The notes under the pieces are model-generated. The model saw nothing but the letters and a program-made list of their open reading frames with translations. It was not told the DNA's origin and did not search any database. Below, piece by piece: positions 40,076-62,604 of a stretch of 64,000 nt of DNA; position 1 is the first letter of the stretch, and every line of letters begins with the position of its first letter. The stretch is taken from the NCBI GenBank assembly GCA_022605425.2, contig CM061256.1:612573-676572 (forward strand). Reading direction: 5' to 3'. Source of the stretch: Hamiltosporidium tvaerminnensis. Taxonomy: Eukaryota > Microsporidia > Dubosqiidae. Both the position numbers and the translations under genes were made by a program.

Positions 40076-43000
40076 AAAAAAGATTATTGAAAAGGTGAAA
40101 AAAGCAAAAATTATATCCGCAAAATAATTTATTTATGTTTTTATAATAAGTAATATTAAGTTATTCATTTCCAAAAACTAGATCGTAATAAATATATTAT
40201 ATATGCCTTATATAAGCTTAAATCAGTTGTATCAAAGAAAAATTGCCGAAACTATATATGTATTATGTTTAAAATAACAAAATTGATTTTACATGAAAGA
40301 AACAGAGAAAAAAAACAGAGTATTATAACAAAAAGATTACAAATATCTTAAATAAATGCCAATTAATGTCTATTTTATACATACAAGAACAGATTTCAAT
40401 CATCTTGAAATTAATATATTCCAAATAAAATTTCTTAGCTAATGATTATGTTCTTTTATACTACAGCATTCTTAAGAACTTCAGTAGCAATTAGAAATTA
40501 TATTCAATATACTAAAATTTAATTTAAATTTATTTCTTTCGATTAATTACCCTTTTTTTTTTAATTTGTTTACTATTTTATTAGATTTTGATTCTATATA
40601 TCTTTTAAAATAAATATCAAGCAATTATAATAAAATGAGCTTTTTTTATAACAAATTATAATTTTTACTGTACTTTAAGGCAAAAATTCTCTAATTTCTT
40701 CTGTTTAGCAAAGAGTCCTAAAGAGAAGTTCTTTAAATAAATCTAGACTAATTGCAAGAAAATTGAAATTTAACATAAATTTACAAACACTATAAGCTGC
40801 TAAAGATTACCATTACTAAATATCCGAGTTTTAATGAAGATATTTAAAATCAAAAAAGCCTAAAGTATCTCTAAAGCTTTTTCAGACAACGTATAACAAT
40901 CTTTTTGTTTCCTAAAAAAAATATATTTTTTAAAAAGGTAGAAATGTGCTAATAAATTGTACTAAGATGATTCAAAAATATTTAAACACTGCTTTCTATA
41001 ACCTAACCTCATAATTTTTATTCGAAACTAGCTACAACGTTATTATTGTAAAATATGTAAAAATCGACCATAATTGATTTTAATCAATTCTTTGTCTACA
41101 CAAATAAAAAAGAAATTTATTTCTCAACAAAAATTTAATTTAATATATAATTAATATTTTTATTGAAAAACACACGAAACCCATATTTAAAATATCTTCA
41201 GTATAAAAATATTTCGATCTTAATTTTTTTTCAATTTAGAGCCATTTTTTTCCCTATAATTTAAAACACGATAACATGTCAATTTCTCCTCCCAACATAT
41301 TTCATAAAAATAAAAAAACTAAAAGACCAATAAAAAGCTAGTTCAAATAAATATTTTTATTTGAGAAAAATGTATTTAGATGAGAAACCAAAGTAATATA
41401 CTCTGCTACCACCAACTTGTATAAATATATCACGTAGTCTGAAAAAAAAATATTGTTTAAAAGTTCGTATATGAATGAATCGAACTTGACACCATCATTC
41501 AAAATTTATAGAATATTAAAACAGAATATCAAGCTTTACACATTCAATCACAACTCGAGCACCAGAAAAAACATTCACACACCTTTAAATCACCGTCAAA
41601 GATTAATAAACCACTGTTTGATTCGCTAATCGCAAGCAGCCTTGTTGCGCTATCGTGTTTTATAAAAAAATTCTTCTTATTACCGAAATAAAACTATCGA
41701 TTTGTCGTTTTAGTTTGTACTTTGTATGTTGGTAGTCAGTAAAACCAATATATATTTGACCGATCTTCTCATTGAGATTTCTGTCAATAAGTTATTTGAA
41801 TTATTGTTGTAAAAGACAAATGGTGGTTTGTAACTCATTTTTTTAGATTAGCCCTTTAAATCTTTTAATATGGCTATAATTTCTTTTGATTTAACCTGAT
41901 TGTTTTTAATCCCAAACATAACATTATCTAAATAGAATATAACCCTAGAAAAGCACATGAAACTTATAGTTATTCAAAAAAGCATAAGGCTTTAGCAATA
42001 AACCGAATCGAAAGCTTAAATTATATGATAAGAAGTCAAGATATATATCAAATAAAAAACTTTTAAACCCAATCTACATTATATAATAAATTACATAAAG
42101 ATGTTCTGTGTATAGCTTCTTGTAGTATACATGCTCTAAGTATGAGTTTTATCCAAAAATTATAGTTGCTCCATATTAGAGCCAATTACCGTAAAGCGTT
42201 TGTAAAAAAGTACATTAATCTGGTGAGGTTAACTCAAAATTTTCCAAGAGCATCAATATCTTATTCTGAATGATTCAAAATTATACATGATTCAATGAAT
42301 TTTATCCATTTCGCTTCGAGCCATTTCATAACAAAGCAAATGGTCTTATATGTAATTTTATAAAACAAATCAGTCAAATTAGCTCCAATATAGTAAACAC
42401 AATGCAAATATTTGTGCTAATCTTTTATGAGAAAAAATGGCATTGATTCCATTGTTTTTTCGATCAGGTGGTACCTTTCAACATGAAGAGAGCTATTTTA
42501 AGTGCATTTCAAGACATATCTGATAGTATTTTGTTAACATTTCCGTAGAGTAAAACCACACATATATATACCTTTTTTAATCTTGTCTGGCTTTCTTTTA
42601 AGTACATATAAAATATGTAAATGAGCCTAATATTATTAAAAATTATAATTAATCTACTACTCGTCAACCATAATATTAAATTTCAATTGTATTACGTGAA
42701 TGATCTCTACCATTCCGCCTTTGATTTTGCTAATTCAGTAGTTCATTAAAATATTTCGATATTTAAAGTTTTTAATACACGTTAAGCTATGCATCCCAGT
42801 TGCTTTCTAGCTCTCATTCTTTACAAGCCTACATTCACATTCTATTGCTAAACCTGAATTTATAAATACCTAGTCCTCAAAAAAAATATTAAGTACAAAA
42901 AACAATGCTAATATTTCCTATAATATATTTTAAAGATTTGTCTTATATTATACAAAATAAGCGTGCCTAACCGCATAGAAATATTTTCCAATCAATCTAT

Positions 43001-43312
43001 ACCCAAATTATAGAAAATTTAATTTGAAAAATTGCATATGCGTATAAAATCTATAGTTGCAGAACTTTTAATGGATTTATATTTAGCTAAGCGCTCAGTT
43101 TAAAAACAAATTACAATAAATTGTAAAATCTATGTAGACATAAGTGTATACAATAAGTATTTTAGTGAAAAAGACGATCACATTTATCTAAATAGAAATT
43201 ACCTTATAAGAAACATAAACACCATTTGAGTATTCTGTACAGTTTTGGAAATAGCTATGAAACCAACTGAAAGCCATTTGATTTTAGAGATAAAGACTCA
43301 AGATAAGGTAAA
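40076..43312. other. AT-rich region left of the telomeric retroelement chain
   Basis: No intact gene. Between about 42110 and 42560 the minus strand has protein-like pieces (GANLTDLFYKITYKTICFVM, KWLEAKWIKFIES), interrupted by stops, that I could not assign. The region ends at the first telomeric junction motif. Confidence 0.4.
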
Positions 43313-43337
43313 GGGTTAGGAAGAAAGAATTTTATTT
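43313..43337 (-). terminator. 3' tail and telomeric junction, copy D
   Basis: In element sense, AAATAAA (43331-43337 on the complement), a 10-base pyrimidine-rich spacer, then CCTAACCC as the last bases. AAATAAA contains AATAAA, the usual poly(A) signal. There is no poly(A) tract; the telomeric octamer stands where one would be. Confidence 0.7.
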
Positions 43338-43655
43338 GTATAGTTCTAAAATTAAATAATCAGTTGAGATTTTTGGTATGAAAACAAAACCTAATTTAAG
43401 CAAATCAGGTAAATTAGTTTAAACAAAAATTTCTCAAATGATTAATAATTTCACATCTACCACTCACTAGAATACGAAACATCACTATTACACCGCCTCT
43501 TACAATATTTTTTGCATTCTTGGTGTTATTAATAGTACAAGCAAATTTAAAATACATTTCTTGTAAAAATAAGCACCCCCTCTCCTAATATTCATTTGCT
43601 CATTCGGGTAAATTAATTTAAAATATTTTTTTTCATCTGTAAAATTATATAAATA

Positions 43656-43686
43656 AGGCAGTAACGTCCCAGTGGGCTCCCCGCCT
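43656..43686 (-). promoter_or_regulatory. Conserved 3'UTR hairpin, copy D
   Basis: In element sense: outer stem AGGC...GCCT, inner stem CCC-ACT-GGG, then GACGTTACT linking back. About 343 bases from the element 3' end. See the copies at 48621, 50154 and 51374. Confidence 0.65.
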
Positions 43687-44039
43687 CGCCATTAGTGATA
43701 CGTTAGTAAATAGTTAGACCAATTTAATATTTTTGTGTTTTATTGTGTTTGGCCTGTGTTTGATCTTTGAAAGTCTGTTAAAATGATGTCAAGATTATCT
43801 TTTTCATGTATTGGACTGATAATTTCAAGAATGATTGAAAAACTGTTTTGTGTTTGTGCATTAAAATTGTAATTTTTGAGGATTTCATAATCCGAAAATA
43901 AGTTCTAGTTAATTTTTAAGTTTTTCTTTTTAAGTTTTTCATATCTTTTTTTGAAATTATCAGCTGTGAATTTTTGAATATTTTCCTAAGATTGTGTTTT
44001 AAATTCTTGATATTCTTTGTGTTATCTAAGTTCAAAAGT

Positions 44040-46470
44040 TTCTTGACAATTGTGTGTTTTAAGTTTTTAAACTTTGGGGCAATAGAAAATCTAGGTCTAT
44101 TTGATCGTCGAGTCCAATTTTCTATAGGGAATAGAGCATAGATAATTTTGGACGGTGTTTTAAAGAAGATTCTGAAGAGGTATTTGATAATTCCTTTTTG
44201 AATTCTATCAGCGGCCCCAAGGAAAGTTTTTTACAACCAAAATTCCTGTATGATAATCCAAATGAGGTCTTACATATGATTTAAATGCTCTCAACTTAAA
44301 CTTGTATTTGTTTTCTGAATTGAAATATCTTGTGAGCTTCATATTTTTGTTTATAATAGCAGTTGCTCTTATCGTTTTTTCTCTAATAATTTTAAGAGTT
44401 TTCCTAGTATCCACACATCTGTTATTAAAGTAAAATCCCAAATACTTTAAAGGATTTTGTCTTGTTATTTGTGGTTATATATAGAAATATTTATCTCTTT
44501 GCCAGAATTATAGTAGGATTTGTGTGGATTGAATACATAATTGTTGTGTTTGGCATGTTTACATCACACTTTATCATTTTTCTTACATGATTAATACTCT
44601 CAGAAAATAAAACAATATCATCTGCATATAGAAGAATATTTTTTCTCATAATTTTTTGTATAAAATGTATGATATCGTTAATGAAAATATTGAATAAACT
44701 CGGTGAAAGTATGCTTCCTTGAGGTAAACCAAGGGAAGCTGTTTTAATTTGACTTCTTTCTTTAGAGTTAGAGATCATATATTGGTTGTTTTCTATTGAT
44801 CCGGAATTAGAGTTGTGTCTTTTAGGGATAAGTTTTGATTTGACAACATTTTATGATACAATTCGGATCGATTAACGCTATCATAAGCTTTTATGAAGTC
44901 CAGTGTTACACATATAAGAGATCCATTTCCATGTCTTAATTCTGTTTCCAGAACCATAGCGTTATTGAGAGTAGAATATCCTGGTTTTAAACCAGATTGT
45001 TGTTTGTGAATTTTGAGATTTATTTGTGATAAAATTAATTCTTCAAATAATTTTCTGGTTTTTTCGATTGAAAAATTAGGTCTAAAATCATCAGTATCTT
45101 TAGGAATAGGAATTATTTTGTGAATTTTTCAAGAATCTGGTATCGTTTGTTCAATTATTATAAAATTATAAAGATTGTCAATTCTTGTGTAAAATTTAAA
45201 GGTAAAATTTTAGAAATTCATTTCTGATTCCAGAAATTCCACCAGATTTTCCCGTTTTTAAAGTTGCAATCTTTCCTATTACTTCGTTAGTTGTAAACCC
45301 GTTGATCTTATCTTCCAAATTAAAGTTTCTGTTGTTTTGTCGCTTGTTGTAAAAGTCAGTTATGTTTTCGACAGTTTTATCTGGGTTTATCAAGGGTCCG
45401 TCAAGTATAAATTTATTAATTAATTCATTCAAATTTGGGTTAATTTTTGATATTGGCAAACCATGGAACTTAATTACCTTCATAAACTCAGATGTATTTA
45501 ACCCGATATGATTTGGTTCTGAATTCGGAACATCTTTTTTATCAAATCTTTTCTTTAAAATTTTGATATCTTTTCCTAATTCATTGTGTAAATCTACGTT
45601 AGTGTGTCTAGCTTCTTAACATCATACCCTTAAGCTCTGGATTATAGGGGGAATTGCTTCAGCTCTACATGTTCTTATCTCAATTCTTTTCATAGTATAG
45701 CTTATAATATTGTGTAAAAATTTACAACATTTATTAATGCATATGTAATCTATGATAAAATATTTTTTTTTCTATATGGTTATGTATCTGTTTTGTAAGT
45801 GTATCTACTAAATCTTTATTTTTTAGTAGATTTAATTTGTATTTCGGCTTCTTAGTTTCACACAGTGCAATAGTATCAACAAGAGTTAGTTTATCGTTAA
45901 ATTCTTAGAGAAATTCATTTTAATTAAAATAAAGTAATTTGTAAATACTTTATCAGCTGTTGAAGATTTTGTGTTATGACAAACGTTGTAAAATTTAAGT
46001 TAATTTCATAAAGTCCGTATTACAGGTGATTATCAAGAATTTCTTGTTCAAGCGCCGGTTTTTGTTCTAAGTTGTAGTCTCCCATAATTAGTGTGTTTAG
46101 ATATTTGTAATTTATCAGATTTTGTTGTAGAATTTCAACTTTATTTGAAGAATTATTCCTTAGCTAAAGATAAATAAATTATATATGTGTTTTATTGTTA
46201 TTCCACTTTCCGTTATGTTGTCAATTTTTGTTAGGGTTAGATTTTTCGTAATCAGTATGATGGTTCCTTTTTTACGAGAGAATATGTAATCTACTCTTAT
46301 AGAAAGTTTAACAGCAGCGATTGCATACTTTTTTGAAATAGGTGTAAAAGTATCTCTCCACGTCTCAACCAAAGCAAGAATATCAAAGGTGTTTTTATCA
46401 AGAATTTCGTTAATCTTTTTAATTTTCAGATCAGATAGGCCGCCCACATGTAATGAAGCCTCTTTTCTTT
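44040..46470 (-). pseudogene. ORF2 of copy D: endonuclease plus reverse transcriptase (broken)
   Basis: Pieces in order are HVGGLSDLKIKKINE and LALVETWRDTF (endonuclease start), GDYN near 46080, then a region near 45860 where the usual SDHxL reads FNDKL. KGRSGGISG-type fingers (TGKSGGISGIRNEFL) follow near 45230. RT motifs LGLPQGSILSPSLFNIFIN and LLYADDIV follow (YADD at 44617-44628). The thumb is GFYFNNRCVDTRKTLKIIRE. Frame changes separate the endonuclease, the middle and the thumb. The YADD box is intact, but the protein as encoded cannot be made. Confidence 0.8.
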
Positions 46471-46506
46471 ACCATAATAATAAGAATGTGAGAGGAATCC
46501 CGGTAT

Positions 46507-47513
46507 CTAGTCTTTACTAAACTTGTTGGTCTCAGGTTTAGAATTTCTCAGGATATCGAGCAGTATGGATTCCTTAGTAGTTATGTTTACTGCAGAATTT
46601 TTACATTTTATGTCAATGTTTTGTTCCTCTTTAAATCTTAAATCAGTTTTTGAGGTTGTTTTTTCATTATTTAATTTACCTTTTTGGTGTAATTTTCGTA
46701 AATTTATGAATTGTTTTGTTGAAAATTTTAAGATTAATTTTCTTGTTACATCTTTTATCTTTCTTATTAATATTTCAATAAATGTTTCCGCGTTTATGAA
46801 GTTCAGATTGTTGATGTAATTTTTGTGAGAATTTGATTTGTAAGAAATTGTCAATTTACCTTTTTTTTTATAAATTTGTTAAAATTTTTAAAAAATAGTT
46901 TCTATTAAATAAAGGTGTTTTGTCGGATTCGTAGGTAAAAGTTTTTTCATTTATGATTATGAAATTCCTCAAATATTTGTGTTTATGTTTAGGTCTCGTG
47001 CCTTTTTTGTGATCTAGTTCAGATTTTATGAATCTTTCGTTATTGACGTTCATGGCTGATGTTATGTTATTAACATGTTTGTGTGTTTTCTTCAATTTTT
47101 TGTTTTCAGATTTTGAAAATTTATATTTTCCAAATTTTTTGTGTTGGTTAGACAAAATATCTTCGGTGTCAATCACTGTTTTGTAATTAAAGTAATTAAT
47201 CTAATGTTTATGTGTTCCGAGGTTGTTAATTTTTGTTTTATCTCGGTTGGAGATAAAGTTAAAATTATTTTTTGTAATTTTTTCTGAATTTTCTGTCCAG
47301 GTAAGACATTTATGTTCTGATTTACTTTTTTTTGACTGAAATTATTTTGTCGAACAAATGTTGGTACGCATTCAAGACATTCTATATATCGTTGATTTCT
47401 TATTTTTGAATTATCCAAGAGTAAGTCTGATTGTATGTCTGTTGTTTTTGTTTTGTAATGTGTTCTTGTTCTAATGAAAAGTCAACCAAGTCTGAATAGG
47501 AAGAAATTGCCAT
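46507..47513 (-). pseudogene. ORF1 of copy D (broken)
   Basis: Starts ATGGCAATTTCTTCC immediately after the telomeric motif. Three main frame pieces remain (47418-47173, 47176-46868 and 46854-46507), so at least two frameshifts have occurred. They are Lys/Asn/Thr-rich with RNA-binding-like basic clusters (KKGTRPKHKHKYLRN) and no zinc knuckle. The last piece ends in NSKPETNKFSKD. ORF1 proteins of LINEs usually bind the element RNA; here only position and composition support that. Confidence 0.6.
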
Positions 47514-47538
47514 GGGTTAGGAAGAAAGAATTTTATTT
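47514..47538 (-). terminator. 3' tail and telomeric junction, copy C to copy D
   Basis: AAATAAA (47532-47538), 10-base spacer and CCTAACCC in element sense, followed at once by the ATG of copy D ORF1. It thus serves as the tail of one element and the immediate upstream sequence of the next. Confidence 0.75.
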
Positions 47539-47606
47539 ATATAGTTTTAAAATTAATTTATCAGTTGGGATTTTAGGTATTAAAACAAAACCTAATTTAG
47601 GCAAAT

Positions 47607-48382
47607 CTTTTTTTTTTTAAAAGGCACAAATTTATTTTAATATTTGAAGCACTAACTCCTCCTACTTTGTAATAATATATTCTTATTAAATTTCTCTTCA
47701 ATCAAATGAATAGTTTCTTCTGGAAACTTTCAATTATTGTATAATATTTCAGTCCAAAGTAACCTTCATTAAAAAACAAAAATTTTATCCAACGGTAGGC
47801 CTTTCCCTGTATATCACATGATATAAATAGGACATCTTCAATCTTCTTATAATTTGCAATAAATATCAAATCTTTTTCTGATATATTTATTTTCTCTAAC
47901 TCATTCTTTTTATTTTATATTCTTGTGAGGCACAAAATAATTCTGAAAAACTAATATTTTGAAAATAAATTCTAAGAATATGAATTTCTTTTAGATTCAA
48001 TAAATTACTAAATGCTTCTACATCTAAATTATCAATAAAAATTGCACACCTGTAAATCCTTTAGACTGCTTAGATCATAGTTTTGAAATAAAAACTTTAT
48101 GGAATCTATAACATATTCAGAATCCGAAATATCTTTATTCGTGGCTTTAAAATATAATTTCTATTATTTTCTGAAAGTTTTACGAAATCAATCATTTGAT
48201 TAATATTCCAAAGACGCAACTCTTTAATATAGAAAATTTGATCTACCGAACGGTTTAATTTTATAGTATTTGCTTTCTCAAAGTATATTTCTTGAAGACC
48301 CATCATAGGAGCAAATAATTATATTTATATATTTTTAAAGGTAATTAATCATCATGATATTTGATTAATGATTTTCCAGAAA
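47607..48382 (-). pseudogene. Inserted retrocopy of a leucine-rich-repeat-like gene, with poly(A) and target duplication
   Basis: The 3'UTR of copy C matches copy D up to AGGCAAAT at 47599-47606, and the match resumes at AGGCAAAT at 48383-48390 followed by TGGATAAATTAAT. The ~776 bases between are foreign. On the minus strand the insert ends in 11 A residues just before the 8-base duplicated target. Its coding flavour is leucine-rich-repeat-like: LQEIYFEKANTIKLNRSVDQ, IKELRLWNINQMIDFVKL and LKEIHILRIYFQNISFSEL, with stops and frameshifts. It is presumably an mRNA copied by a LINE and inserted here. The longest intact frame is only 66 codons (48306-48106). Confidence 0.65.
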
Positions 48383-48620
48383 AGGCAAATTGGATAAATT
48401 AATACAAACAAAAAATCATGATGATCATTTACTCTCATCCAACACTTTCTTAAAAATAACACTAATAAAAATTCACCCGCCTCTCATATAAATAGTTTCG
48501 CTCATCTGGGTTTTTATAATTGAAAATAACACCACCTCTACTATTTTCTTTTGCTTTTTTGGGATTTTAAGTATTAGAAAATTAGGCATTTTCGTACTCT
48601 GTATTAAAAATATCTAAATA

Positions 48621-48652
48621 AGGCGGTAATGTCCCATTCGGGCTCCTCGCCT
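48621..48652 (-). promoter_or_regulatory. Conserved 3'UTR hairpin, copy C
   Basis: Element sense: outer stem AGGCG...CGCCT and inner stem CCC-GAAT-GGG. The outer closing pair is G-C here but A-T in copy A (GGCA...TGCC), a compensatory change that supports a real RNA stem. Confidence 0.7.
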
Positions 48653-48815
48653 TTGCGTTGGTGATAAGTTTTTGAACAGCTAGGCCAATTAACTGTTTTG
48701 TGTTTCAATGTGGGTTGCAGATATCATATCTTTGAAATTCGACGAGTATTTCGTCAAGATTATCTCTTTCATGATGTGGTCCGATAATTTCCAGGATTGT
48801 TGAAAAACTTTATTT

Positions 48816-49816
48816 TTATTGTGATTTAAAATTGTAAAATTTAAGTATTTCAAAGTCTGAAAATAGCTTTAAGTTAATTCTTAAATTTTCTTTTTTAAAT
48901 TTTTCACATTTTTTCTCGAGTTTATCGGCTTGAAATTGTCTATTTACTTTGTTGACAATTTTTTTAAAATGTTTGACATTTTTTGTGTTATCATTTTGAT
49001 ATAAGTGTTTGACAATTGAATTTTTGAGATTGCTGATTTTTGTTGCAATAGAGAATCTCAGTCTAGTGGATCTTTTAAACCAGTTTTCAATTGGGAAAAT
49101 GGCATACAATAATTTTGAAGGTGTTTTATAATAAATTCTGAATATATATTTTATAAGGTCTTTTTGAATTCTGTCTGCTGCCTCAATAAAAGTCTTGTTA
49201 CAACCTAAAAGTGAAGTGTGATAATCTAGGTGAGGTCTTAAATAGGCTTTGTAGGCTCTCAGTTTGAATTTATACTTGTTTTCAGAATTAAAATATTTTG
49301 TTAGTTTCATAGCCTTGTTAACTATGGCTGTTGCTTTGATTGTTTTTTCTCTAATTATTTTAAGTGTTTTTCATGTATCTACACATCTGTTATTAAAATG
49401 GAATCCCAAATATTTTAAAGGATTTTGTCTTTCAATTTGTGTGTTGTAGATTGATAGGTTAATTTCTTTGCCAGAATTGCAAAAACATTTTTTGGGATTC
49501 AAAATATAGTTGTTAAATTTCGCGTGTTTTGATACACATTTGATCATTTTTCGAATATAATCATATCTTTCAGAAAATATTACTATGTCATCAGCATATA
49601 GAAGTATGTTTTTTCTTATTTCTTCTGGAATAAAGTGAATGATATCGTTTATAAAGACGTTAAAAAGACTTGGTGAAAGTATGCTTCCCTGAGGAAGTCC
49701 CAAGGCTGCTGTTTTGATTTGGCTACATTCCTTAGAATTTGAAATCATATATTTGTTATTTTGAATTAGATTGGCAATAGGTGTTGTATCTTTGAGATAT
49801 AAGTTTTGATTTAAGA
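48816..49816 (-). pseudogene. ORF2 fragment of copy C (reverse transcriptase, C-terminal half)
   Basis: Contains LGLPQGSILSPSLFNVFIN and LLYADDIVIFSERYDYIRKM, then the thumb-like YLGFHFNNRCVDT. A single in-frame TGA (49371-49373) follows at the position of the Arg in copy D. The frame then resumes and runs to 48816 (RPHLDYHTSLLGCNKTFIEA, DRIQKDLIKYIFRIYYKTPS). Apart from the 5' truncation only this one stop breaks the frame, so the copy is rather young. Confidence 0.85.
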
Positions 49817-49851
49817 GGGTAGGGTTAGGGTGAAAAAGAAATGATTTATTT
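49817..49851 (-). terminator. 3' tail and telomeric junction, copy B to copy C
   Basis: Element sense: AAATAAA (49845-49851), a 14-base spacer, CCCTAACCC and then CCTACCC-like sequence; two adjoining telomere-type units remain. Copy C begins directly after it. Confidence 0.7.
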
Positions 49852-50153
49852 AAATACTTTTAGTAGATCAAAACAGATCTAAACACGTCACAACACAAAA
49901 ACAATTAACTTCTACGCTGATAATCTTGCCCCGCACATCACTAAAAACACCAACTACCTTCACGACTGATATTTTCGCCAGTTTCATTGATAATATCAAT
50001 GTCTCAAATCAATCACATGCATTTTTAATTGTTGTCTTAGCAATTAATTTGATAATCAAAGCAATTATTGGTTTCAAAAAGGGACCAATAATCGTAAAGT
50101 ATAATTTTGGATGGTTCTATACACTTCAATCTATTTTATAAAAGCATTACAAA

Positions 50154-50186
50154 GGCTACTACGTCCCCTAATGGGGCTCTGTGCCC
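50154..50186 (-). promoter_or_regulatory. Conserved 3'UTR hairpin, copy B
   Basis: Element sense: outer GGC...GCC and an inner stem lengthened to CCCC-ATTA-GGGG, so both sides gained a pair. About 337 bases from the element end. Confidence 0.6.
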
Positions 50187-50189
50187 AAC

Positions 50190-51130
50190 CGTTTCTGCAA
50201 AATCGTATCTGCTAATGTCGACTGGCCAATGTCAACATACTTTTATGGTGGATTTTATTTTTTTGTCGTTCATAAGTTCTAAAATTTCTTCAAACTTTTT
50301 CTTTTTCTTTTCAAAGTTAACTACCTCTAATAGTTTACTTAATCTTTCTTTAGTTTCTGTATTCCAGTTAAAATTTTTTAGGTTTTTAAAATTGTTAAAT
50401 ATTTCTAAGTTCTGTTGTAAATTTTTCTTCTTAGGTTTAGTAATTGTAGCTGAAAATTTTATTGTTGTTCCTTGGACCATCTCTTCATTTATATGTTCAA
50501 AGTAAAGTTTCTTCATGGTTTTAAAGATTTTAGTATTGTTATTTAGGAAGTTCGTGTATAAATTTGTTCTTTTACCATTCAGAATCTTGTGAGTGTTAAT
50601 TAAGCTTAGTCGTCTACTTCTTTGCTTTTTTTTTCTATAGAGAAGATTCCGTAAATGATTTTACTCGGTGTTTTGTAATATATTCCAAAAAGATTTTTAA
50701 TAATTCCTTTTTGGATTCTGTCGCAATCTTCAGTGAAAGTTTTGTTTAGACCAAGAAGTGTAATAGGGTAATCTATATGTGGTCTTACATATGATATGTA
50801 GCCACGTAGCATGTATCTAAAAATGTCACCCGAGTTATTAAATATATTCTTTCTTACAGCACTTTTTAAAATCGCTGTAGCTTTTAGGGCATTTGTTCTA
50901 GCTATTTTAAGATTTTTCTTTGTATCTGCGCATTTCAAATTGAAATAATAGCCTAGGTATTTGATTGGCGATTGTTTAACTATTTCTATATTATTAACTC
51001 TAATTTCAATCGTAATATTTGTGTTATAAAAACATTTTTTCGCGTTTAACAGATAGCTATTGTATTTGGCGTGTCTTTCTATGTTAGCTATCATTTCATG
51101 GATTTCATCTATTCTGTTCGAAAATATCAA
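50190..51130 (-). pseudogene. ORF2 fragment of copy B (RT thumb and C-terminus)
   Basis: The frame from 51130 to 50606 reads FSNRIDEIHEMI, then YLGYYFNLKCADTKKNLKIAR, RPHIDYPITLLGLNKTFTED and DRIQKGIIKNLFGIYYKTPS. All of these match the corresponding parts of copies A, C and D. A frameshift near 50610 separates it from the second piece (50516-50232, ending KSTIKVC), which is the C-terminal Lys-rich region. Confidence 0.8.
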
Positions 51131-51155
51131 GGGTTAGGAAAAGGAAATTTTATTT
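51131..51155 (-). terminator. 3' tail and telomeric junction, copy A to copy B
   Basis: AAATAAA (51149-51155), 10-base spacer and CCTAACCC, then the truncated ORF2 of copy B begins with TTGATATTTTCG. Confidence 0.75.
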
Positions 51156-51373
51156 AAATATTTTTAAGTTCTGAAAAATTTCAGAATTTACATACAGTTA
51201 ACACCCCCCTCCTGGTATGATACATGACACCCGTTACTACAGTTTCATCTAACCCTTATACTTCCACGAAGCCTCATATGGAATTCCTTGAGGTTCCAGA
51301 TTGTCTTGTTTCATGGGTATCTTCTCAACCTGATCTGCTTTATAATATTAACTGGTAAAAGTTTTTTAAATAT

Positions 51374-51403
51374 GGCAGTAACGTCCCTTGCGGGCTCCCT
51401 GCC
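51374..51403 (-). promoter_or_regulatory. Conserved 3'UTR hairpin, copy A
   Basis: Element sense: GGCA...TGCC outer stem and CCC-GCAA-GGG inner stem, the loop being a GNRA tetraloop. About 243 bases from the 3' end. The best-formed of the four copies. Confidence 0.7.
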
Positions 51404-51458
51404 TTAACCTACCTGCTAAATAGTATCTTGTGGATTAATAAGGTCAATATTAACCCCG

Positions 51459-54205
51459 CTAAGTTGTGTGATCTTTATTATGCTGAATAAATTTTATTAA
51501 AATTTGAATTATATTTTCTCTTTTATAGTCTGGAGTAAGAATATCTAAAAAAGCTTTAAATCTTGTTGTTGGAATCCTTTTGAAATCTTGCTGCCTTAGA
51601 TTCTCGAAAGAGTTAAAGATTTGGAAGTTAAGACGCAAATTTTCTCTTTGCCACCTATTATATTTTGCTTTAAATTCATTTCCCTGAATCTTATTCTTGA
51701 TATACTTGCAATTTTTCTTTATATCTTTAATATTTTTGGATTTATTCGGTTTGAATATCCATCTTAACAGTGTTTTTCTTGTGTGTATGATCTTATAAGC
51801 AACATTGCTCCTGAGTCTATCTGCTCTTTGCTTTGTATTTTCCAAGGGAAATAATGCGTATAAGATCTTCGTTGGCGTTTTGAATAAATTTTATATAGAT
51901 ATTTTATTATGCCTTTTTGTATCCTATCAGTGCCTTCAACAAACGGTTCATTACAACCGAACAGCTGGGCATAATAATCTATATGGGGGCGTAATAATTT
52001 AGTATACATTCTTAATTTTGATTGATAATATTGCAGGTTATTATTACTATATTGTGTCTTTCTTAATAACTTATTTGTAATCACTGCCGCTCTAACGGCT
52101 TTTTGCCTTATGAATTTAAGGCTTTTCATGGTACCTGCACATTTATTGTTAAAATAATATCCTAAATATTCCAGAGGGACTTGTTTTTCCAACCTGGTAC
52201 GATCTACATAGAAATCGTGATCTGTTGAAGCATTGTAAAAACATTTCCTTGGGTTTAATTTATATCTGTTGGCTTCCGCGTGCGATTGACATTGATCTAT
52301 CATGTATTGCATTGTGCTATGCCGTAAGCTAAATAATGAAATGTCGTCTGCGTAAATAATTATGTATGGTACCAGGTGCTATGGCATTCTTATCACGATA
52401 TCATCAATAAACACATTAAATAAAATTGAAGATAAAATGCTTCCTTGGGGTAATCCAAGAGCAGCAGTTTTCCAATTATTATTTTCTATTAATGTGTTGA
52501 TCTTGTACTCGTTATTCTCGATCAGTGCAGCTATTAGAATTGTATCTTCTCTTGAAAACTTCTTCTTTATCATTAGTTTCTCGTACAACCTCTTACGATA
52601 TACACTGTCATAGGCTTTGGAGATATCTAAAGTTACACAGATTCCTTCTACATCGCCATGTCTTAATCTGGTGTCAAGTGTTAAGGCGTGGTTAAGGGTC
52701 GAATGCTTCAGTCTAAAACCAGCTTGTTGTCTTTTCAGCTTTACCTCAAATTTGCTAAAAATTAGTTTTTCGAATAGTTTACGTGTTTTCTCTATCAATG
52801 AAATAGGTCTAAACTCGCTATCATCTTTGTGTATTGGTTGTATCATGTGTTTCTTCCAAATCAAAGGAATCTCTTTATCCGTAATAATCTTGTTAAACAT
52901 GTATGTAAGCTCCACTATAAAGTTGCGCAGACAAATCTTAAGGAATTCATTCTTAATACCGCTAATCCCACCCGCTTTGCCACCTTTTAATATCTTTATA
53001 CATTTCTCTACCTCTTCAACACTTAGCTGGTTTATCTTATTTTTTCTCTGTATGGTGTGTTTGCTAAATAAACTATTGTGGATGTTTTTTATCCACTTAA
53101 TTGTTTCCTCTAAGCTTGTTATCTTCCGATCTAAAACAAAGTTATTAAGTAATTCTTTATTATAATTCTGTCTACTGTTTGGGATTGCGTTACCATGAAA
53201 ATTCATAATGGCTTCTAATTGTGATGCTTCCAAACCAATGTGTTCTACTTTGAGGTCACGAGTATCAGTATCCGGTAGGTTTTTGGTTAATCTCTTTACT
53301 TCTTTACATAACCTTTCAAACAAGATTGGATTATTGTGCCTTGCTCTTTCAAGTGCTCTCCTAATGTGCTGAATGACTGGATTGAAGTTCGTACGACTTT
53401 GTTTGCGTATTATGAGTCTATATACACCAGAAAGTATGATATTATGTAAAGCTGTGCAACAGTCATTGATGTTTAGAGTTCTTATAATATTCGAATTCTT
53501 CTTAATTAAAATCTCTATTTTATTTGTAATATTTGCTACTACTTTTGGTCTAGTCAAGAGTCTTATATTATACTTAGTTTTCTTTTTTTGTATTTCTATC
53601 GGTTTTAATATTAAGAGTTTGTGATTTAATCCCACAATTGGAGAAATCTTAATATCTACTATCGTGTTTGTAAAAATCTTATCAGGTTTTGATTCTTTAT
53701 TATTGTGTTTGTATGTATTTGTTAGAATGTCGATCTCTGACAATCCATACATTGCGTGGTTATCTAAAATTTGTTGTTCAAGTGTCTTGTGTTGTTCTGA
53801 GTTATATTCTCCTAAAATGTATAGTCTTTTGTACAGGTATTGGTTTAATGTAGGTTTTACGATGTTAAATTCTGTACTTTTTGGGGGTCTATATATAAAA
53901 ATAAAAATTTGGTCATTCACTTTTATTGAAATACCTTCATCTGTTATATTGTCAATTGCCTCACTAACAATCGTATCCCTACCCAATACTATTATACCTT
54001 CTTTGTTTGAGTATCGGTCTCTTACTTGGACAGATTTCTTACTGTTTAACACTTTATATCCTCTTAAGAGTGGCGTTATATTATCTCTCCATGTTTCAGC
54101 CACTCCGAGGATGTCCAACATATGTCCTTGAATTAAATTATTTATCTTAAAAATTCTATTATCAGATAATCCCCCAACATTGATATACCCTACTTTAAAA
54201 ATCAT
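51459..54205 (-). pseudogene. ORF2 of copy A: APE-like endonuclease plus reverse transcriptase (one stop, one frameshift)
   Basis: Residues from ATG 54205: an APE/EEP endonuclease with Asn9 (INVGGL), Glu37 (ETW), Tyr105 (YRPP), GEYN at 132-135 where GDxN is usual, Asp175 (DKIFTN), and LNHKLL near 193-198 where SDHxL is usual. RT follows: GGKAGGISGIKNEFL, EFRPISLIEK, RLKHSTLNHAL, LDISKAYDSVY and LGLPQGSILS. The YADD box (52343-52354) is intact but lies just after an in-frame TAG (52379-52381 on the complement). The thumb is GYYFNNKCAGTMKSLKF. A frameshift near 51850-51880 moves the C-terminus into the 51845-51459 frame. The altered endonuclease residues would reduce or abolish nicking; the RT core residues are kept. 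Confidence 0.9.
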
Positions 54206-54274
54206 AGAGTTTATTGTTCAAGCTCGAAGTGTAATCTATCTAAATATTATTGTCCTTGATATTGAGAATTTTTA

Positions 54275-55764
54275 TCATCTCGTGAGTTTGATGCCTTTAC
54301 TCTTGAGTATACGAACTGCTAGACTTCTTAGTTTGTCGTTCTTGTTGCCCTGTCTGTCTTTAATCTTCTTCATTCGTGTAAATAACTTGCTTATTTTAAA
54401 AAGACCATTACTATCTACTTCAGGCGAGTTAATCAAGTGTTTGGCTCCAAGCATTCTAAAAATTCTAATCACCTCCTTTTGCACAGACCCTTTGCATATC
54501 ACTTCTAACACAGTATTAGAGAGAAACTCCATGTTTACAACCAACTTACTAGCACCCGGTTGAATGTTCTCCAAAGCGAGCCGAAATAGTGATATTTTAT
54601 TAGAAGTTAAATTACAAAGTAAAGTAAAACGTGTCTAGCATATGTAAAAGGTGATTTACCTTGTGTTAAATGCGCAAGATGCTCAGCAGTTAGTTTAATT
54701 GGGCTGGACTTCTGCTTCATATATTCTTTCTTCTTTAGAATATTGTTTCTTACTGAGATGGCTACCTCAGATTTGTCACTTATAGTCTCCTTGATATCTG
54801 CTTGGTAATTTATTTTCTTTACTTGATCTTCTCCTATTTCACTATTTGTTGTTTCCAAACTTCGTTTCCTATAGGGTTTCTCAATTTTTTGAATGTGAGT
54901 CAAGCTTCAAGGTTTATCTTCAAGCCTTAATGAGATACTTTTCTGTTGCTTTGCCACGTCCGTACCACCTCTGAGCGTGTTCTGTTTCGGGACTGTACGT
55001 ATAAGAACTCTGACTCTGGGTCTTGATAGTATCTTACGTGTGGTTTTATTGCCGTTGCTAGTGAGCGTATTGTTGATGTGTGTAATCTGTGTTGTTTCAT
55101 AGAGTGTTGTGGTATCAGAATTCGTGTTCTTGTTATCAGTAGCATCAGTCATCTCATTTACCACGTTTGCATTATTATCTTTTGTTGAAGATGTATCTTC
55201 TGTTTCTATCCTATCGAAATCCTTACCTTTTTTCAAATGTGCGTTTTCAATAGCAGAGGGTAAAACATTTTTCCCTTCTCTTGATTTTTGAAAAATATTA
55301 TCTTGGGTGTTATTTGTATGACCAGAAAGAAAAGAAGAGGTATCAGCTTTAGGATTGATGATGGTATTTCTTTTTTGACATGTTGTTAAGTTTGTGCTGT
55401 GTAACGAGACTGTCTGTTCATGCGGCGTATCACCAAGGTCTCTACCCCGTACCCTTGGTTTAACAGCTTGAACGATCCGCGATACTTCCGTTGTGTTCAA
55501 TTCATTATTTCGTTTAGTTTGTTTCTTACTAGTACAACGAGTCTTGTTTGTAAATTCCGCACATAGATCTGAAGTTCTTGTAGATGTCTTATCTAGGTGC
55601 AAATTAGAGTTTCTAGCCATGTTCCAAAAGCCATTGCAAAGTAGTTGAACAGTTTCGTTTTCTGTATTTGTTCTGTCTCTTAGTGTATTTCTCTGTGCAA
55701 CTTTATTATGAGTTGGATCTTTTGTATTTTTATCAGAATGAGCTAAGGAATATTTTGTAGCCAT
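54275..55764 (-). pseudogene. ORF1 of copy A (broken)
   Basis: The first piece (55764-54907, 285 codons) is Thr/Asn/Lys-rich and basic, with no zinc knuckle seen. It ends at a TGA at 54907-54909. The same frame continues (LTHIQKIEKPYRKRSLE...) to 54607, then a frameshift leads to the last piece (54574-54275), with ENIQPGASKLVVNMEFLSNT and a basic end KSKGIKLTR. The product would be an RNA-binding ORF1p-like protein by position. The ATG is preceded by CTTAACTC, a two-base variant of the CCTAACCC seen at copy D. Confidence 0.7.
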
Positions 55765-56100
55765 GAGTTAAGACAAGAAAATTTTATTTAAACATTTTAA
55801 AAATTCTGGAAATTTCTATACTACCTCAATTAAACCCCATCAAACAATTAGAAAACTTTAGAATATTAACCAGATCTTTTTGCACTATTGTTAATAACAC
55901 ACGCCTATAACACTGTATAGAGCTTAACATCTTTTGAATAACAACAACAGAATTAATACCCTTAACTACAAGTAGCACGATAACACAGATAGTGCTTGTC
56001 TTGTATATGACACACTCCTTTACTGTATCACTACAGTTAGCAGGACGAACTATTTGATCCGTATGGAAATTAGCGCACTATTTGCATAAGCCTTATTAGA
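55765..56100 (-). mobile_element. 3' tail of a fifth chain member (copy E), rest lost
   Basis: In element sense the sequence entering copy A ends AAATAAA (55783-55789), a 10-base spacer, then CTTAACTC next to the ATG of copy A. The flank further right resembles the copy A tail for about 40 bases (TTTAAAAATTCTGGAAATTT against TTTTTAAGTTCTGAAAAATT). No hairpin or RT sequence is found to the right, so only a short 3' scrap of a fifth element remains; its right edge is a guess. Confidence 0.5.
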
Positions 56101-59100
56101 TTATACAGAAGGGTTTTTAAAGATAGCTTATGAACAGAATTTCAAACTTAATATTTTTCAGTAAGAACTGTGGGATAAGTAAAATAAAGTTCAAATTGTT
56201 CATAAACATTTATACAATTTGCTTTACTGACTGACATAACGTGTTTAGCTTCAATGTTTTAATTCCTTTCGTGTATCGCTCAAATGAAAAGTTTTCATCT
56301 TAAATTACAATTTTTTTTTTCGCAATCAGGCTCATTAAATAAGATTGACATTAACACAGATTATGGCTGAATGGATTATATATTAGACTTTTAAAATTGA
56401 ATATAATCCCTTGTTTGAGCGAATCCGTATTTTTCACGAGATTAAACAATTTATTTATACTACTCTATGAATATTATCTAGAATTTTGCAAATAATCCTA
56501 TATTAGAATTTTCCGAAATCATATCACCTAACAACCTAAAGTTTGAAATAAATATTCAGCGAATATCATAAAAATAGATATATAGGTGGTATTTGATATA
56601 AGGCTTAAATGAAAATATAGGAAAACAGAGTTATAAAAGAGTATACAAAATACTACCCAATGACAGAAGAGCTTTAAGACATAGAAATATGAAATGTTTT
56701 TATAGAGGAGATGTTCGAGATTAAGAACGTACGCTAATTTATAGTTTTTAATATAATAAATATAAATTGGTAAAATCAAAGAAAAAAATAGCCCCTGTCA
56801 TCCTGATAATATAAATAAATATCTTACCCTTTTGAAATCATTGTATCTGGCATATGCTCTAATATAATAGACCACACAGATCTATTTTTAGCTTATAAAC
56901 AAACCTTCTCTATAAAAATACTTGGGAAAACTAAAACTACTCTAATCATTTCTTAATAAACTGACCAAATTTTTCTATATGTCTGTATAAATTTAGGTTG
57001 TATATGAAAATGTATATTATATACATTCCAAAAACAGGTGTAAGTACTGATTTTTAGTAGAAAGTATTTCTAAATCCCCTGTTGAAGATACCTATTTTAA
57101 TTCACAGTTAAACAGTATATACTTGCTTTGATCTGGAAAATACATCTATTCTAATTACAAAAAAAACCCTTGTATGATATTGAGTATAGTAAATAGAAAT
57201 ACGTTAACCAAGTACATACGAAGAACTTCTAATATTCACTGTGTTGAATAGAAAGCATACTTAATTTTATTATATAATTAGAAACGATACCGAAAAGTAT
57301 TAACGATATTTCTTTCAACCCTATCAATTCTAAAATTACTACGTTCTTAAAAAATACATAAGCCTAATTTTATAAAAAAGTGTTTTTGAATTACTAGTAG
57401 GCTCGATCGTCTGAAAAAAAAGTATGAAAAGTGTACAAACCACATAAAATCTTTTTAGATCAGTCTGGCGTTTTCTTTAAGATTAAAATCTATATAAAGT
57501 TAATAGTATTTTCTTAAATTAGAAAATACATACAAATTAAGTCAATTAAAAAATACTTTGTTTCTTTTTCGTTTTTTTAAAAAAAATATTAATCGCTAAA
57601 ACAATTTCTTTAAATTTTTTTCTACAATATTCTAACGATTAGAATTATCGATGTTTTTTTGCTATCTGTCTACACAAAATGCATAATATATTTTTAACCT
57701 CTGAACCTACATATTTATCAAATATAAGTGGCAAAGAAGGGAGAAATTTTACTTACTCAATCTAATGTTTTAAACAAGCTATTCTTAAATAAAAGTTTCA
57801 AACCTAGATCCAAGACAGGTTAAACTTATAATTTACTAGGTTTTCTTAGCATTTTCTTTTTCAAGTAAACTATAGGAGCATATAAAATAATCACCTTTTA
57901 ATATATTTCAAAAAAAAATTAGCCAATGATAAAACGAATTCTCTCAAAACACTTATATCTTTAAAGAAATCATAGAACTGACTGTTTTGATATATTCTCT
58001 AACTGAATAATAGACATAAAAAGTAATATTATATAAAACGAAAAATTTACTTCCTAATTGTGATTAAATAGCTAAAAACATGCACCTCCGAAGTTTAGAA
58101 TTAATCAACCATAATTTTAAGATAAACCCCCTAATCATAAACGTACTTTCAAATTTTTTATTTTTGTAAATTACTAAAAAATAAAAAAAAAATAACCTGA
58201 TGCATATTTCCTAAAAAACTATTAACATGAGTGTTGCTCAAAATTCGGTATTTTCATAACGAAAAAAAACAATTTGTCTTCATTTTAAATGTACTTTTTT
58301 ACGACTAAAAACTCTTCTGAAAATTTTCAATTTCTTAATTTGAATATAATTTGCGAAGGTAACACATAAATTCAGAATGAAATATGCTAAGGTGCTATAT
58401 CACTTTAGTAATTTGTTTGAAAAGTTAAATTTGTACGTTTAATAGATTCTTTCAAACAAATTTGAACTTAATATTTTCGGCTTGGCAATATTTTTTTTAA
58501 TTTAGAAAGTAATTATTATTCAAAGAAAGTCGTATATTTATCAAAAATCTTAATTTTCTCACAAAAAAAGCTAGAATTTTGCACATAGTAGGTAGAAGTA
58601 GAAAGAATAAGACAATTTATAGATATTATAAAGCCCTGGTATATATATTTATCATAAACGGATACATAAAAATAGTAGACAATTTTAAACATTGTAATAA
58701 AATTATAGAGGTAAAAATTTTAATAAATATAAATATACAATTACATTTAAATTTATACAGTACTAAACCAAACCACAGGAAGGTAAAAAATATATAACTG
58801 ACTAAAAAATTTGCAATGAATTGTAAAAAGTTATAGAATACTAAAACGGAACAAAATATTTTGAATTTGTCCAAAGAATTCCAGGGAATCTAACCCTAAC
58901 TTTATACGGTTTTTGAAAACGCAATTTTTCAAAAAAAGTATGTAGAAAAATTCACTTTTTAGTAAAATGTAGACAAAAATAAAACAATATAAACAATCGG
59001 AACTTTCATAGTTACAAATTTTCAAAAAAGTCATTATCAAATTTAAATTGTTTTTAATATTTAAATATTTTCAGATAGAATAAAGGTATTTTTATTCTCA

Positions 59101-59110
59101 AATATGTAAT

Positions 59111-59141
59111 TGATCCAAACCCCTTCAGGGGTGGGTGATCA
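59111..59141. repeat. Nested GC-rich inverted repeat
   Basis: Outer arms TGATC/GATCA enclose CCCC-TTCA-GGGG. This is a short GC island in nearly pure A/T DNA. It could be a structured RNA end or a protein-binding site; nothing else supports either. Confidence 0.6.
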
Positions 59142-60109
59142 CTCTAAGAGATAATCCGAATAAAATCAAATTTCAAGACCAGAACTAAAAACTGAAAGAA
59201 AAAGAAAAGTGATGCCCGTTTTTATTCTGACTAATACACCAATAAACTTTTTACTATTCGTTTTTTTACCCCAACCTACTTACTTCCCTCTATCACTATT
59301 TCTGAAAAATGTACCTTGAAAATGTATCTCTCATACCATAATACTATTCCAATTCATCACATTCTTTTCCCTGTATTATTTCAGACCAACTATTTTATAA
59401 ACATTACCTAGACTTCAGAATCTCTTTATCATGATTCATCTTTAAAGAAGGATTACCAAACATACTAAAAATAATTAACTAAACCAATTAAGTTAGAGTT
59501 TAAATTATTTTTTTGGTTTTGGCTAGCATGGAATGGCAAGTTTAATTAATTCCGTGACAATCCAATTCAAATTTACATATTAAATTTTTCTTCGTAACAA
59601 TTTTCTTTATTTTTTTCTTATTTTATATATTACTTTTCTTCCCAATTTAGAAGAGATTCTTATAAAACATTTTTTTGTTTATTTTATCTACTATATGTCA
59701 ATTCACGTTTTTAGAACATTTTTGGGGCTTACATTCCCTAACTTCACAAAAGGTAAATTATTACAAAAAGAAATTTAAATATATTATTAGATTAATATGA
59801 TTCTAAGAAGCCTTTTCAAATCTAAATTTGTGTATTTTCATAGTTATAGAATCTAAGAAAAAATATATTTTTGAAGAAGTAAATTTACTAGCAATATAAA
59901 TTTTGATATATAAAAACTTTAAGTGGAAAAATATTGGTTAGCAAAGATTAAAATACGGTTATTACTTGGATAAAAATTACAGGAAACTACTTTTTATAAA
60001 AAAACAAACATGGTTTCATACCGGTGGATAAGGAAAAATAGAAACTTAACTTTTGGATAAGAGAATCATTTTTTTTAAATAATTTCTATTTTTTTACCCC
60101 AATTTATTT

Positions 60110-60960
60110 TTCAATAAGAATAAAAAAGTTTGGGAGAAGAAAATAATGCAAGAAAAAAAAGATTGTAGTTAAAAACAAAAAAAATTATTGGAGAAAAAAA
60201 GTTAAGAATAAATCGTGAGAGTAAAATTAGAGTAGAGATGAGCATTGGGTTTTACATCTATTAAGAAAGTTTTAGTTAGGGAAAGAAAAATTGTAGCTAC
60301 GGAAAAAAGATTTTAGCTAGGGAACAGGTATACGAAGGAAGAAAATTAGGTATGTGAAAAGAGAATTAGTTGGTAATAGGGTTTAGGGAAAGTGAAATCA
60401 GGCCGGGGGAAAGGATTTCTAAGGAAAAAGTATTGTTTTTTAAAATTTAAAAAATACTAAGGAAAGTTAAAATTGGTAGAATAAGAATCTGTTAATTAGA
60501 AAAAAATTGTCAGAATGATAATATTTAGTTGAAATTAATAGAGTCGGGCATGTTATTAAAATTTGTTTTAAAGATACAAGTTTTAAAAAAAGAAAATAAT
60601 TTGAACAGAATAAATAAAAATTACTTTTGTAAAGAAGAATTGTCCTGAAGGGAAACAAGTTTATGGAAAAAAGAAAGTTAGGGCAAAAGAAATTAATTGC
60701 GGAAAAAATAAATTTAAAGATAAAATGATTTGGCCAGAAAAATGATGAAGTTATTTAAAATATATTTAAATATAAAGAAATTAGGGGGTGAGATTCTGTT
60801 ATGTAAAAAGAAATCAGGGTAAAAACAATTGGGATAGGGAAATAATAATAGGGTCGAAGAAAAACGTTTGGTTTTGGGGGATTAAAAAAAGGGAGGGAAA
60901 GCTTGTTAGGAGTGGTATGAAATTAATTAGTTGAGTGAAAAAAGTTTTTGCTATTTTTTA
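60110..60960 (+). repeat. Purine-biased block with scattered TTAGGG-like runs
   Basis: The + strand carries G runs every ~20-40 bases, many as TTAGGG or TAGGG (60275-60281 GTTAGGG, TAGGGTTTAGGG near 60378, GTTAGGG near 60678, ATTAGGGGG near 60780), separated by A-rich sequence. C is rare. It looks like a strongly degenerated array or telomere-derived tract about 3 kb inside the telomere. Confidence 0.45.
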
Positions 60961-62349: not shown

Positions 62350-62604
62350 ATGTTTAGACCCATGGGGATAAACATTAATAAATCTTTCTATAATCCACCA
62401 ATTAGGATATATACAGATGCAGCAAATATAGCTGCAAATATTACAGAGAATTCATATCCGTGAACGGTGGCATTTGTTATATTTGGCTTCCACTTCATTG
62501 CAGTCATAGCTCTTGTAGTTTTAAAGATGAAGAGCTTTTCCTATAGAGCATCAGATGTTTCAAACATATTCTTGAACCTAATCGTAGAAGATGCTACAAA
62601 ATGA
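62350..62604 (+). pseudogene. Relic of a small membrane protein gene with one in-frame TGA
   Basis: ATG at 62350 opens MFRPMGININKSFYNPPIRI, then YTDAANIAANITENSYP, TGA (62461-62463), then TVAFVIFGFHFIAVIALVVL and KMKSFSYRASDVSNIFLNLI, and a stop at 62602. Apart from the single TGA the 84 codons are of protein character with a clear membrane span. It may be a fragment of a larger gene. A second frame at 62653-62835 could be its continuation. Family unknown. Confidence 0.4.

Follow-up and report, generated by a model that had tools for sequence, protein, structure and literature searches.

The right end of contig C11 of Hamiltosporidium tvaerminnensis, a microsporidian parasite of the water flea Daphnia magna, carries a head-to-tail chain of long interspersed nuclear elements (LINEs) joined by short telomeric motifs. 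The window analysed here is the 64,000-nucleotide (nt) stretch that forms this end (612573-676572) in an assembly of 21.64 Mb and 17 contigs. From the inner to the outer side the chain consists of element 1 (el1), a chimeric unit, el2, el3, el4 and the tail of an outer element, all on the minus strand with the 3' end inward. It lies about 7.4-20 kb from the telomere tract, which starts near 63225, a slight revision of the 8-20 kb given in the initial annotation, which had been made from the sequence alone. The features, in positions of the window, are given below, where ORF denotes open reading frame, RT reverse transcriptase and EN endonuclease.

43313-43320, plus strand: telomeric stub GGGTTAGG, where the 3' end of el1 meets single-copy inner DNA (from the sequence and a search with the inner flank)
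43321-47513, minus strand: el1, a full-length decayed LINE whose 5' end is the ORF1 ATG at 47513, with RVT_1 pieces and a hairpin at 43646-43687 (55.9 bits with hairpin model R1)
47514-47607, minus strand: inner end of the chimeric unit, a 94 nt LINE tail of el1 type with stub GGGTTAGG (47514-47521), aligned pairwise to the tail of el1
47608-47618, minus strand: run of 11 A (T11 on the plus strand), remnant of the poly(A) of a host mRNA (comparison with genomic copies)
47619-48304, minus strand: 3' part of a host multigene-family mRNA, 5'-truncated within the coding region (78-82% identity to relatives over about 700 nt)
48305-49816, minus strand: el2, a 5'-truncated LINE holding the C-terminal half of the RT (RVT_1), with a hairpin at 48611-48653 (model R1)
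49817-49831, plus strand: telomeric stub GGGTAGGGTTAGGGT, longer than any other inner stub of the chain (sequence)
49832-51130, minus strand: el3, a 5'-truncated divergent LINE (weak RVT_1) with a related but different hairpin (its own fold)
51131-51138, plus strand: telomeric stub GGGTTAGG at the 3' joint of el4 (sequence)
51139-55764, minus strand: el4, a full-length LINE with EN and RT in ORF2, the ORF1 ATG at 55764 and a hairpin at 51363-51405 (model R1)
55765-55772, plus strand: variant stub GAGTTAAG (two bases differ) between el4 and the outer tail (sequence)
55773-55816, minus strand: tail of a further outer LINE (AATAAA plus 11 nt; family D7), its upper limit undefined
56300-63200, no strand assigned: subtelomeric repeat, 92-95% identical to C4L, C15R, C1R and C7L and partly 76-83% to others
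63225-64000, plus strand: terminal (TTAGGG)n tract of 776 nt (sequence)

The motif GGGTTAG occurs on the plus strand at 43313, 47514, 49822 and 51131, each time exactly at the start of a LINE tail; about three matches are expected by chance in the whole window and some others are present, for example at 46234 and 51249. Related tails, of family D7, follow GGGTTAGG or its variant at 43313, 47514, 51131 and 55765, and the more divergent tail of el3 follows GGGTAGGGTTAGGGT at 49817, as read from the sequence. All five junctions with telomeric motifs claimed by the initial annotation are present (four with GGGTTAG, one with GAGTTAAG), the motif at el3 being longer than it had described (49817-49831). 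The claimed minus-strand orientation with inward 3' ends is true of every unit; that strand also holds the RVT_1 matches, found in pieces of el1, el2 and el4 and, weakly (16.6 bits), of el3. It had counted four elements and the tail of a fifth, two of the four with full 5' ends and two truncated; el1 and el4 do extend to the ATG of ORF1, and el2 and el3 break off within the RT, but a sixth junction at 48305 had been missed. There a further LINE tail (family D10) begins, with TAGG as the only telomeric bases, and the stretch 47514-48304 is therefore a unit of its own rather than part of an element. ORF2 of el4 encodes EN and RT and is broken by an in-frame TAG and a frame shift. An empty site for the el1 joint was sought in the assembly and none was found, because the inner flank (40800-43312) is essentially single copy, with two weak partial matches (70-71%) in the assembly besides itself. 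Near the inner edge of the window and outside the chain, a separate RVT_1 piece lies on the plus strand at 2990-3979 (E 2.8e-8).

The chimeric unit bears on how the chain was built. In the 5' to 3' direction of the minus strand it comprises the end of a host mRNA (stop codon and 3' untranslated region, UTR), the run of 11 A, the 94 nt el1-type tail and the stub. The host part ends at the base 12 nt past AATAAA, where the A run begins; in all five dispersed relatives compared, identity of 78-82% continues until this poly(A) site, and these have 4 A there versus 11 in the chain. The succession of mRNA end, A run and LINE tail means that an RNA was copied into the chain. Judged by its sequence, the unit is a template-switch retrocopy, in which the LINE RT would have begun on its own RNA and switched to a cellular mRNA. 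Comparable chimeric retrogenes, with a cellular RNA copy joined to the 3' part of a LINE, are described from Magnaporthe grisea and for mammalian U6 (PMC2104539; PMC4476161); unlike those, the chimera of H. tvaerminnensis is a link in a chain near a chromosome end. The family of the captured mRNA is dispersed over 28 places (for example C3:554299 and C8:97752), with members of up to about 790 aa; a Pfam scan of one relative gave no match by which to name it, and the description "leucine-rich-repeat-like" is by eye only.

The elements belong to a family found towards contig ends throughout the assembly. Six-frame genome searches with the EN-RT part of el4 (65 matches) and the RT part of el2 (43 matches) were merged into 30 clusters, leaving out five weak internal matches (E 4e-7 to 4e-4) that were attributed to other RT lineages. 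Scoring covered 72 of 188 candidates in the el4 EN-RT search and 150 of 456 in a search for RVT_1, so that totals are lower bounds. In all 30 clusters the 5' end points toward the nearer contig end, at a maximum distance of 185 kb, and 23 of the 30 lie within 70 kb of a contig end, a zone that holds 11% of the genome. Before exclusion the raw outward counts were 62 of 65 (el4 EN-RT search) and 43 of 43 (el2 RT search). As a control, 138 other loci among the 150 RVT_1 matches scored pointed outward in 68 cases and lay within 70 kb of an end in 11. Internal copies in both orientations, the pattern that the initial annotation had named beforehand as speaking against its reading, did not appear. 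The clusters are partly dependent: one joint is common to C1R, C15R and C4L and another to C13 and C7, and copies of a third lineage on C2, C13, C16, C3 and C14 share flanks. Since some clusters are duplicates, 30 overstates the number of events, and the 19 distinct 3' joints of one polarity are the fairer count.

Head-to-tail joints of at least two LINE units occur at C1L, C4L (where the outer unit is merely tail-like), C6R, C7L, C9L, C11R and C13L. At three of the 22 contig ends with a TTAGGG tract of at least 100 nt, a LINE lies with its 5' side toward the tract: at C9L base 668 is both the last of the tract and the first with ORF1 homology, at C3R ORF2 homology takes over at 772 from a tract ending at 771, and at C6L ORF1 homology starts at 846, within 272 nt of the tract end at 574. 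Such tracts were not seen at the other 12 of the 34 contig ends, three of which are masked. The telomeres of the published assembly, which was built from long reads and is accompanied by published Iso-Seq data, are likewise (TTAGGG)n (PMC10542269). A telomerase gene is present (Telomerase_RBD match of 72.1 bits in a 911-codon frame) and, given this gene and the tracts on most ends, LINEs can be at most a second means of end extension. At the right end of C4 (L063) and the left and right ends of C5 (L064, L084), G+C-rich degenerate CCTGGCC-like repeats replace a clean TTAGGG tract.

The third lineage (L011, L012, L017, L023, L024) lies in subtelomeric segmental duplications at C2:1801022, C13:49532, C16:183302, C3:1392754 and C14:49352; its ORF1 has 307 aa, an uninterrupted ORF2 of 915 codons is found on C2, and neither hairpin nor tail was recognised in the flank examined. 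At C1:589890-622232 three intact-looking RT frames of another, weakly related lineage (E about 5e-7) occur on both strands; these are possibly the LINEs at rRNA operons mentioned in a 2025 comparison (PMC12449221).

ORF2 is uninterrupted over 914-939 codons in two copies at C9 and at C13 and C4. In ORF2 of three loci scanned (L006, L007, L008) RVT_1 scores 110-125 bits, and Exo_endo_phos is listed, below cut-off, for L006 and L008 and not for L007. The ORF2 profile is collinear with the EN and RT of human L1 ORF2p from L1 residue 10/11 onward, and the positions of the catalytic Asn, Glu, Tyr, Asp/Asn, Asp and His of the endonuclease are mostly kept. Pfam lists no C-terminal endonuclease in ORF2, and R2 proteins match the RT region only. 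Along with the RT and an N-terminal endonuclease domain like the apurinic/apyrimidinic (APE) type, the copies show 5' truncation, a defined 3' end and no long terminal repeat, and on these sequence features the family is one of two-ORF, APE-type non-LTR retrotransposons, that is, of LINEs. A metagenome protein, P0012 (921 aa; 37% identity over 47% of the query), has the same EN-RT order and perhaps stems from another microsporidian.

The 3'UTR holds a 30 nt hairpin with an outer stem of 5 bp, an inner stem of 4 bp and often a GNRA loop, in which 97.2% of alignment cells are paired and whose covariation score was reached by 3 of 500 shuffles. Allowing up to three mismatches, the hairpin pattern occurs at 13 places, every one of them within this LINE family and oriented as expected, and its reverse has no match; the pattern was written from known copies, which make up about half of the 13. 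It misses el1, el3 and the C1R/C15R/C4L copies, in which a base is absent or different, and an Rfam search of 42000-57500 at the gathering threshold assigned the hairpin to no known RNA family.

At the opposite end, the full-length copies (el1, el4 and C4A; three of three seen) begin 0-3 nt before an ATG-GC, directly after the tail of the neighbour. Microsporidian mRNAs have 5'UTRs shorter than 7 nt, and in Encephalitozoon cuniculi a CCC-like motif stands just before the start of most genes and an AAATTT-like motif upstream in ribosomal-protein genes (PMC2803860). The neighbouring tails AAAATTTTTCTTTCCCATC (before C4A) and AAATAAAATTCTTTCTTCCTAACCC (before el1) resemble these motifs and that of el4 is degenerate, which suggests that the tail of the outer neighbour may act as the promoter of the next inner element. 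Of nine ORFs considered (eight in the window and telomerase), eight have an in-frame ATG, and CCC is nearby in three of these eight, including telomerase.

Sixteen of the 20 tails read carry AATAAA 10-14 nt before the end, 16 of 20 end in TTCC, and none has oligo(A) at the 3' joint. As mRNAs of H. tvaerminnensis have A[A/U]UAAA on average 20 nt before the 3' end (PMC10542269), the LINE ends about where mRNA cleavage would be expected. Telomeric bases follow the tails far more often than background: a match of at least 5 nt at 7 of 19 distinct joints versus 0.55% (after TCC runs), of at least 3 nt at 11 of 19 versus 5.0%, and of at least 2 nt at 15 of 19 versus 12.7%. The background was drawn from the fetched loci including the joints themselves and is thus slightly too high. 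A twentieth joint (C1 near 63.4 kb, CCTAACCCTTAAATT, seven matching bases) is counted among the 20 tails and not among the 19 joints, and one of the 19 tails, that before C4A, has no AATAAA and is assigned to the LINEs solely by its resemblance to their tails. At the seven joints with five or more telomeric bases the stub is mostly about one repeat long, and no inner stub among the joints read exceeds about 2.5 repeats.

That the stub is carried in the RNA of the element was considered, for el1, the chimeric unit and el4 share CCTAACCC, and was ruled out: nearly the same tail is followed by different bases in C9A (CCCTAATAAC), C4A (CCCTTCTTAA), C5 (CCCTAACCCCC) and C6b (CCCCTAAATT), so that the stub must come from the target or be added at the break. 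C9A and C4A are 99.2% identical over 3879 nt and differ in both their inner and their outer flanks, and the non-telomeric joint of C4A is therefore not simply old. Two further joints apparently mark the loss of an older end: that of C13a lies inside the 3'UTR of an element kept longer by C7, and that of C9B in a subtelomeric repeat kept by C2.

The polarity, subtelomeric location and stacking of one LINE family suggest that eroded or broken ends are the sites at which its RNA is copied. On balance we regard it as probable, though far from settled, that copies of this APE-type family reach chromosome ends when their RNA is reverse-transcribed directly onto the end of a short or broken G strand. 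In the mechanism envisaged, the LINE RNA would end at a polyadenylation site (AATAAA or a variant, 10-14 nt, mostly TTCC), and a G-strand 3' end of the form ...TAGG or ...TTAGGG would pair with the terminal CC and prime cDNA synthesis, the priming end being either a telomere worn almost away or a break that carries a few bases resembling the telomere. Such priming would place copies with the 3' end inward and the 5' end outward, and the 3'UTR hairpin would probably label the template RNA. Incomplete synthesis or later erosion would truncate the outer (5') side, and the next copy would join the newly exposed end, giving a head-to-tail chain whose joints hold at most about one telomeric repeat. 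Telomerase would then re-cap the end, and subtelomeric recombination would spread some of the blocks. Insertion into, or addition onto, TTAGGG ends had been proposed from the window alone and gains support from the 30 of 30 polarity and the excess of telomeric bases after the tail.

Fixed polarity would follow if a G-strand 3' end primed the first strand, at the chromosome's own end or at a nick alike. Site-specific insertion, in which the APE endonuclease nicks the G strand within (TTAGGG)n in the manner of TRAS/SART or MoTeR and copies with short stubs persist as longer interstitial tracts break, thus accounts for the polarity equally well; the EN residues are mostly kept, the 5' ends abut the terminal tract at C9L and C3R, and in Magnaporthe a truncated MoTeR1 lies one TTAGGG from the telomere boundary and the stable interstitial tracts comprise no more than two repeats (PMC7367193). 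We nevertheless consider it an unlikely, if serious, explanation: no copy with a long tract on both sides occurs in the joints read, the recent C4A has a non-telomeric joint, and C13a and C9B are located where older sequence was cut off. The short or absent stubs, this recent joint and the cut-off targets together favour the chromosome's own end as primer, a step that, like the function of the hairpin and the order of events, we infer.

Stacking could also arise by recombination only, with telomeric stubs seeding break-induced replication between ends as in yeast Y' arrays, so that existing LINE blocks would be multiplied without retrotransposition. The 7 kb repeat adjoins the outer side of el4-type LINEs at five contig ends (C11R, C1R, C15R, C4L, C7L) with 92-95% identity, el4 itself is 93% identical in the two copies compared (C1R, C7L), the inner flanks of these blocks are of three kinds that each begin at the LINE 3' end, and joints are shared between C13 and C7 and among C1R, C15R and C4L. 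Recombination therefore made part of the pattern; the el4 blocks may be separate insertions that later gained the same outer block, or the block may have been replicated from a stub, or both. As the whole explanation it is improbable, since the chimera of mRNA, A11 and LINE requires reverse transcription, both flanks differ between C9A and C4A, and the chain joints lie at LINE 3' termini beside variably truncated 5' ends. Within the subtelomeric repeat of the window, a short telomeric motif, CTAACCCTAAC, lies in the opposite orientation on the plus strand at 58886-58900. That ordinary LINEs insert anywhere, survive only near gene-poor ends and meet telomeric bases by chance would agree with the many copies that are decayed and lie within segmental duplications, but it cannot yield 30 of 30 polarity or telomeric bases at 3' joints, and the remaining RT loci are scattered through the assembly with no preferred orientation, which makes it highly improbable. 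A misjoining of tandem LINEs in the assembly, conceivable at repeat-rich ends when 12 of 34 lack a long tract, is scarcely credible, for the same anatomy recurs with different joints at seven contig ends and the published assembly is based on long reads (PMC10542269).

Several observations weigh against addition to existing ends. At 12 of the 19 joints fewer than five telomeric bases follow the tail, and the proposal of the initial annotation that telomere repeats are re-added between rounds accordingly suits the seven joints with about one repeat and not these twelve. The evidence for broken targets comprises two pairs only, and that of C13 and C7 involves related 3'UTR repeats. An endonuclease is encoded and mostly conserved where an end-primed element would need none, and 13 of 14 Hamiltosporidium rows of its alignment have Asn where L1 has Asp, directly before the catalytic His. 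Between C9A and C4A the ratio of nonsynonymous to synonymous change (dN/dS), based on few changes, is 0.47 and gives no strong indication of selection; between lineages dS is saturated, and rows with the C16 copy (L017), which spans a frame break, were set aside. Model R1 has no match to the held-out el3 at E up to 10, while el3 alone folds alike, and the block outside el4 is common to five contig ends.

A bolder and more doubtful proposal is that the APE-type LINE serves as a second RNA-templated healer of ends beside telomerase, primed by GG-on-CC pairing at eroded or broken ends, and may bring host mRNAs with it. Such an element would lack a promoter in a 5'UTR of its own, the tail of its neighbour together with the telomeric CCC supplying both a poly(A) signal and, for the next inner element, a promoter of microsporidian type. 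LINE healing of ends beside telomerase, priming by an end versus a nick, and the neighbouring tail as promoter become testable questions in this system.

The initial annotation knew of no such system in microsporidia, and a literature search found no description of one. The words "LINE" and "retrotransposon" are absent from the main text of the H. tvaerminnensis genome paper (PMC10542269). In Microsporidia sp. MB, LINEs of up to 10 kb are reported beside the telomeres of most chromosomes, which qualifies that claim, but the telomere repeat there is the 4-mer TTAG, and joints, polarity, hairpin and mechanism do not figure in the relevant parts of the report (PMC13174016). The telomere-associated TRAS and SART are LINEs of APE type in hosts with telomeric repeats, as here. 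They belong to the R1 clade, insert into telomeric repeats and have opposite orientations, TRAS versus SART (PMC10088271), whereas the family in H. tvaerminnensis has a single polarity and no tract on both sides, its inner stubs measuring at most about 2.5 repeats.

HeT-A, TART and TAHRE form head-to-tail chains on chromosome ends with the 3' end toward the chromosome and variable 5' truncation, and are added to broken ends; HeT-A and TART have oligo(A) at the 3' joint and a promoter in the 3' end of the outer neighbour, and HeT-A is not known to encode an endonuclease. The chains described here share the inward 3' ends and the attachment to chromosome ends, and might use a promoter in the neighbour as well. 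They differ in that the elements encode an endonuclease, the joints lack oligo(A), and the host has both telomerase and TTAGGG tracts. The elements thus do not replace the telomeric repeats, while Drosophila telomeres consist solely of these three elements (PMC10088271).

MoTeR of Magnaporthe oryzae and FoTeR of Fusarium oxysporum are likewise terminal non-LTR elements with outward 5' ends, 5'-truncated copies and arrays, short stable interstitial TTAGGG stubs and subtelomeric recombination (PMC7367193; PMC12857005). In H. tvaerminnensis, too, outward 5' ends (30 of 30) go together with telomeric 3' joints (at least five bases at 7 of 19). MoTeR and FoTeR are of the CRE/SLACS group with a restriction-enzyme-like endonuclease, in contrast to the N-terminal APE-like domain found here; MoTeR1 has a telomere-like run at one terminus and FoTeR 3' ends have 3-7 repeats (PMC7367193; PMC12857005), as against an ATG at the 5' end and at most about one repeat in the present family. 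By the features tested, the family works like MoTeR or HeT-A and is a member of neither. Telomere-bound LINEs are thus a known kind, to which, as far as the literature search shows, H. tvaerminnensis contributes a documented microsporidian family of APE type whose stubs span about one repeat and one of whose chains incorporates an mRNA chimera, in a genome-reduced lineage with telomerase, intact ORFs and near-identical recent copies.

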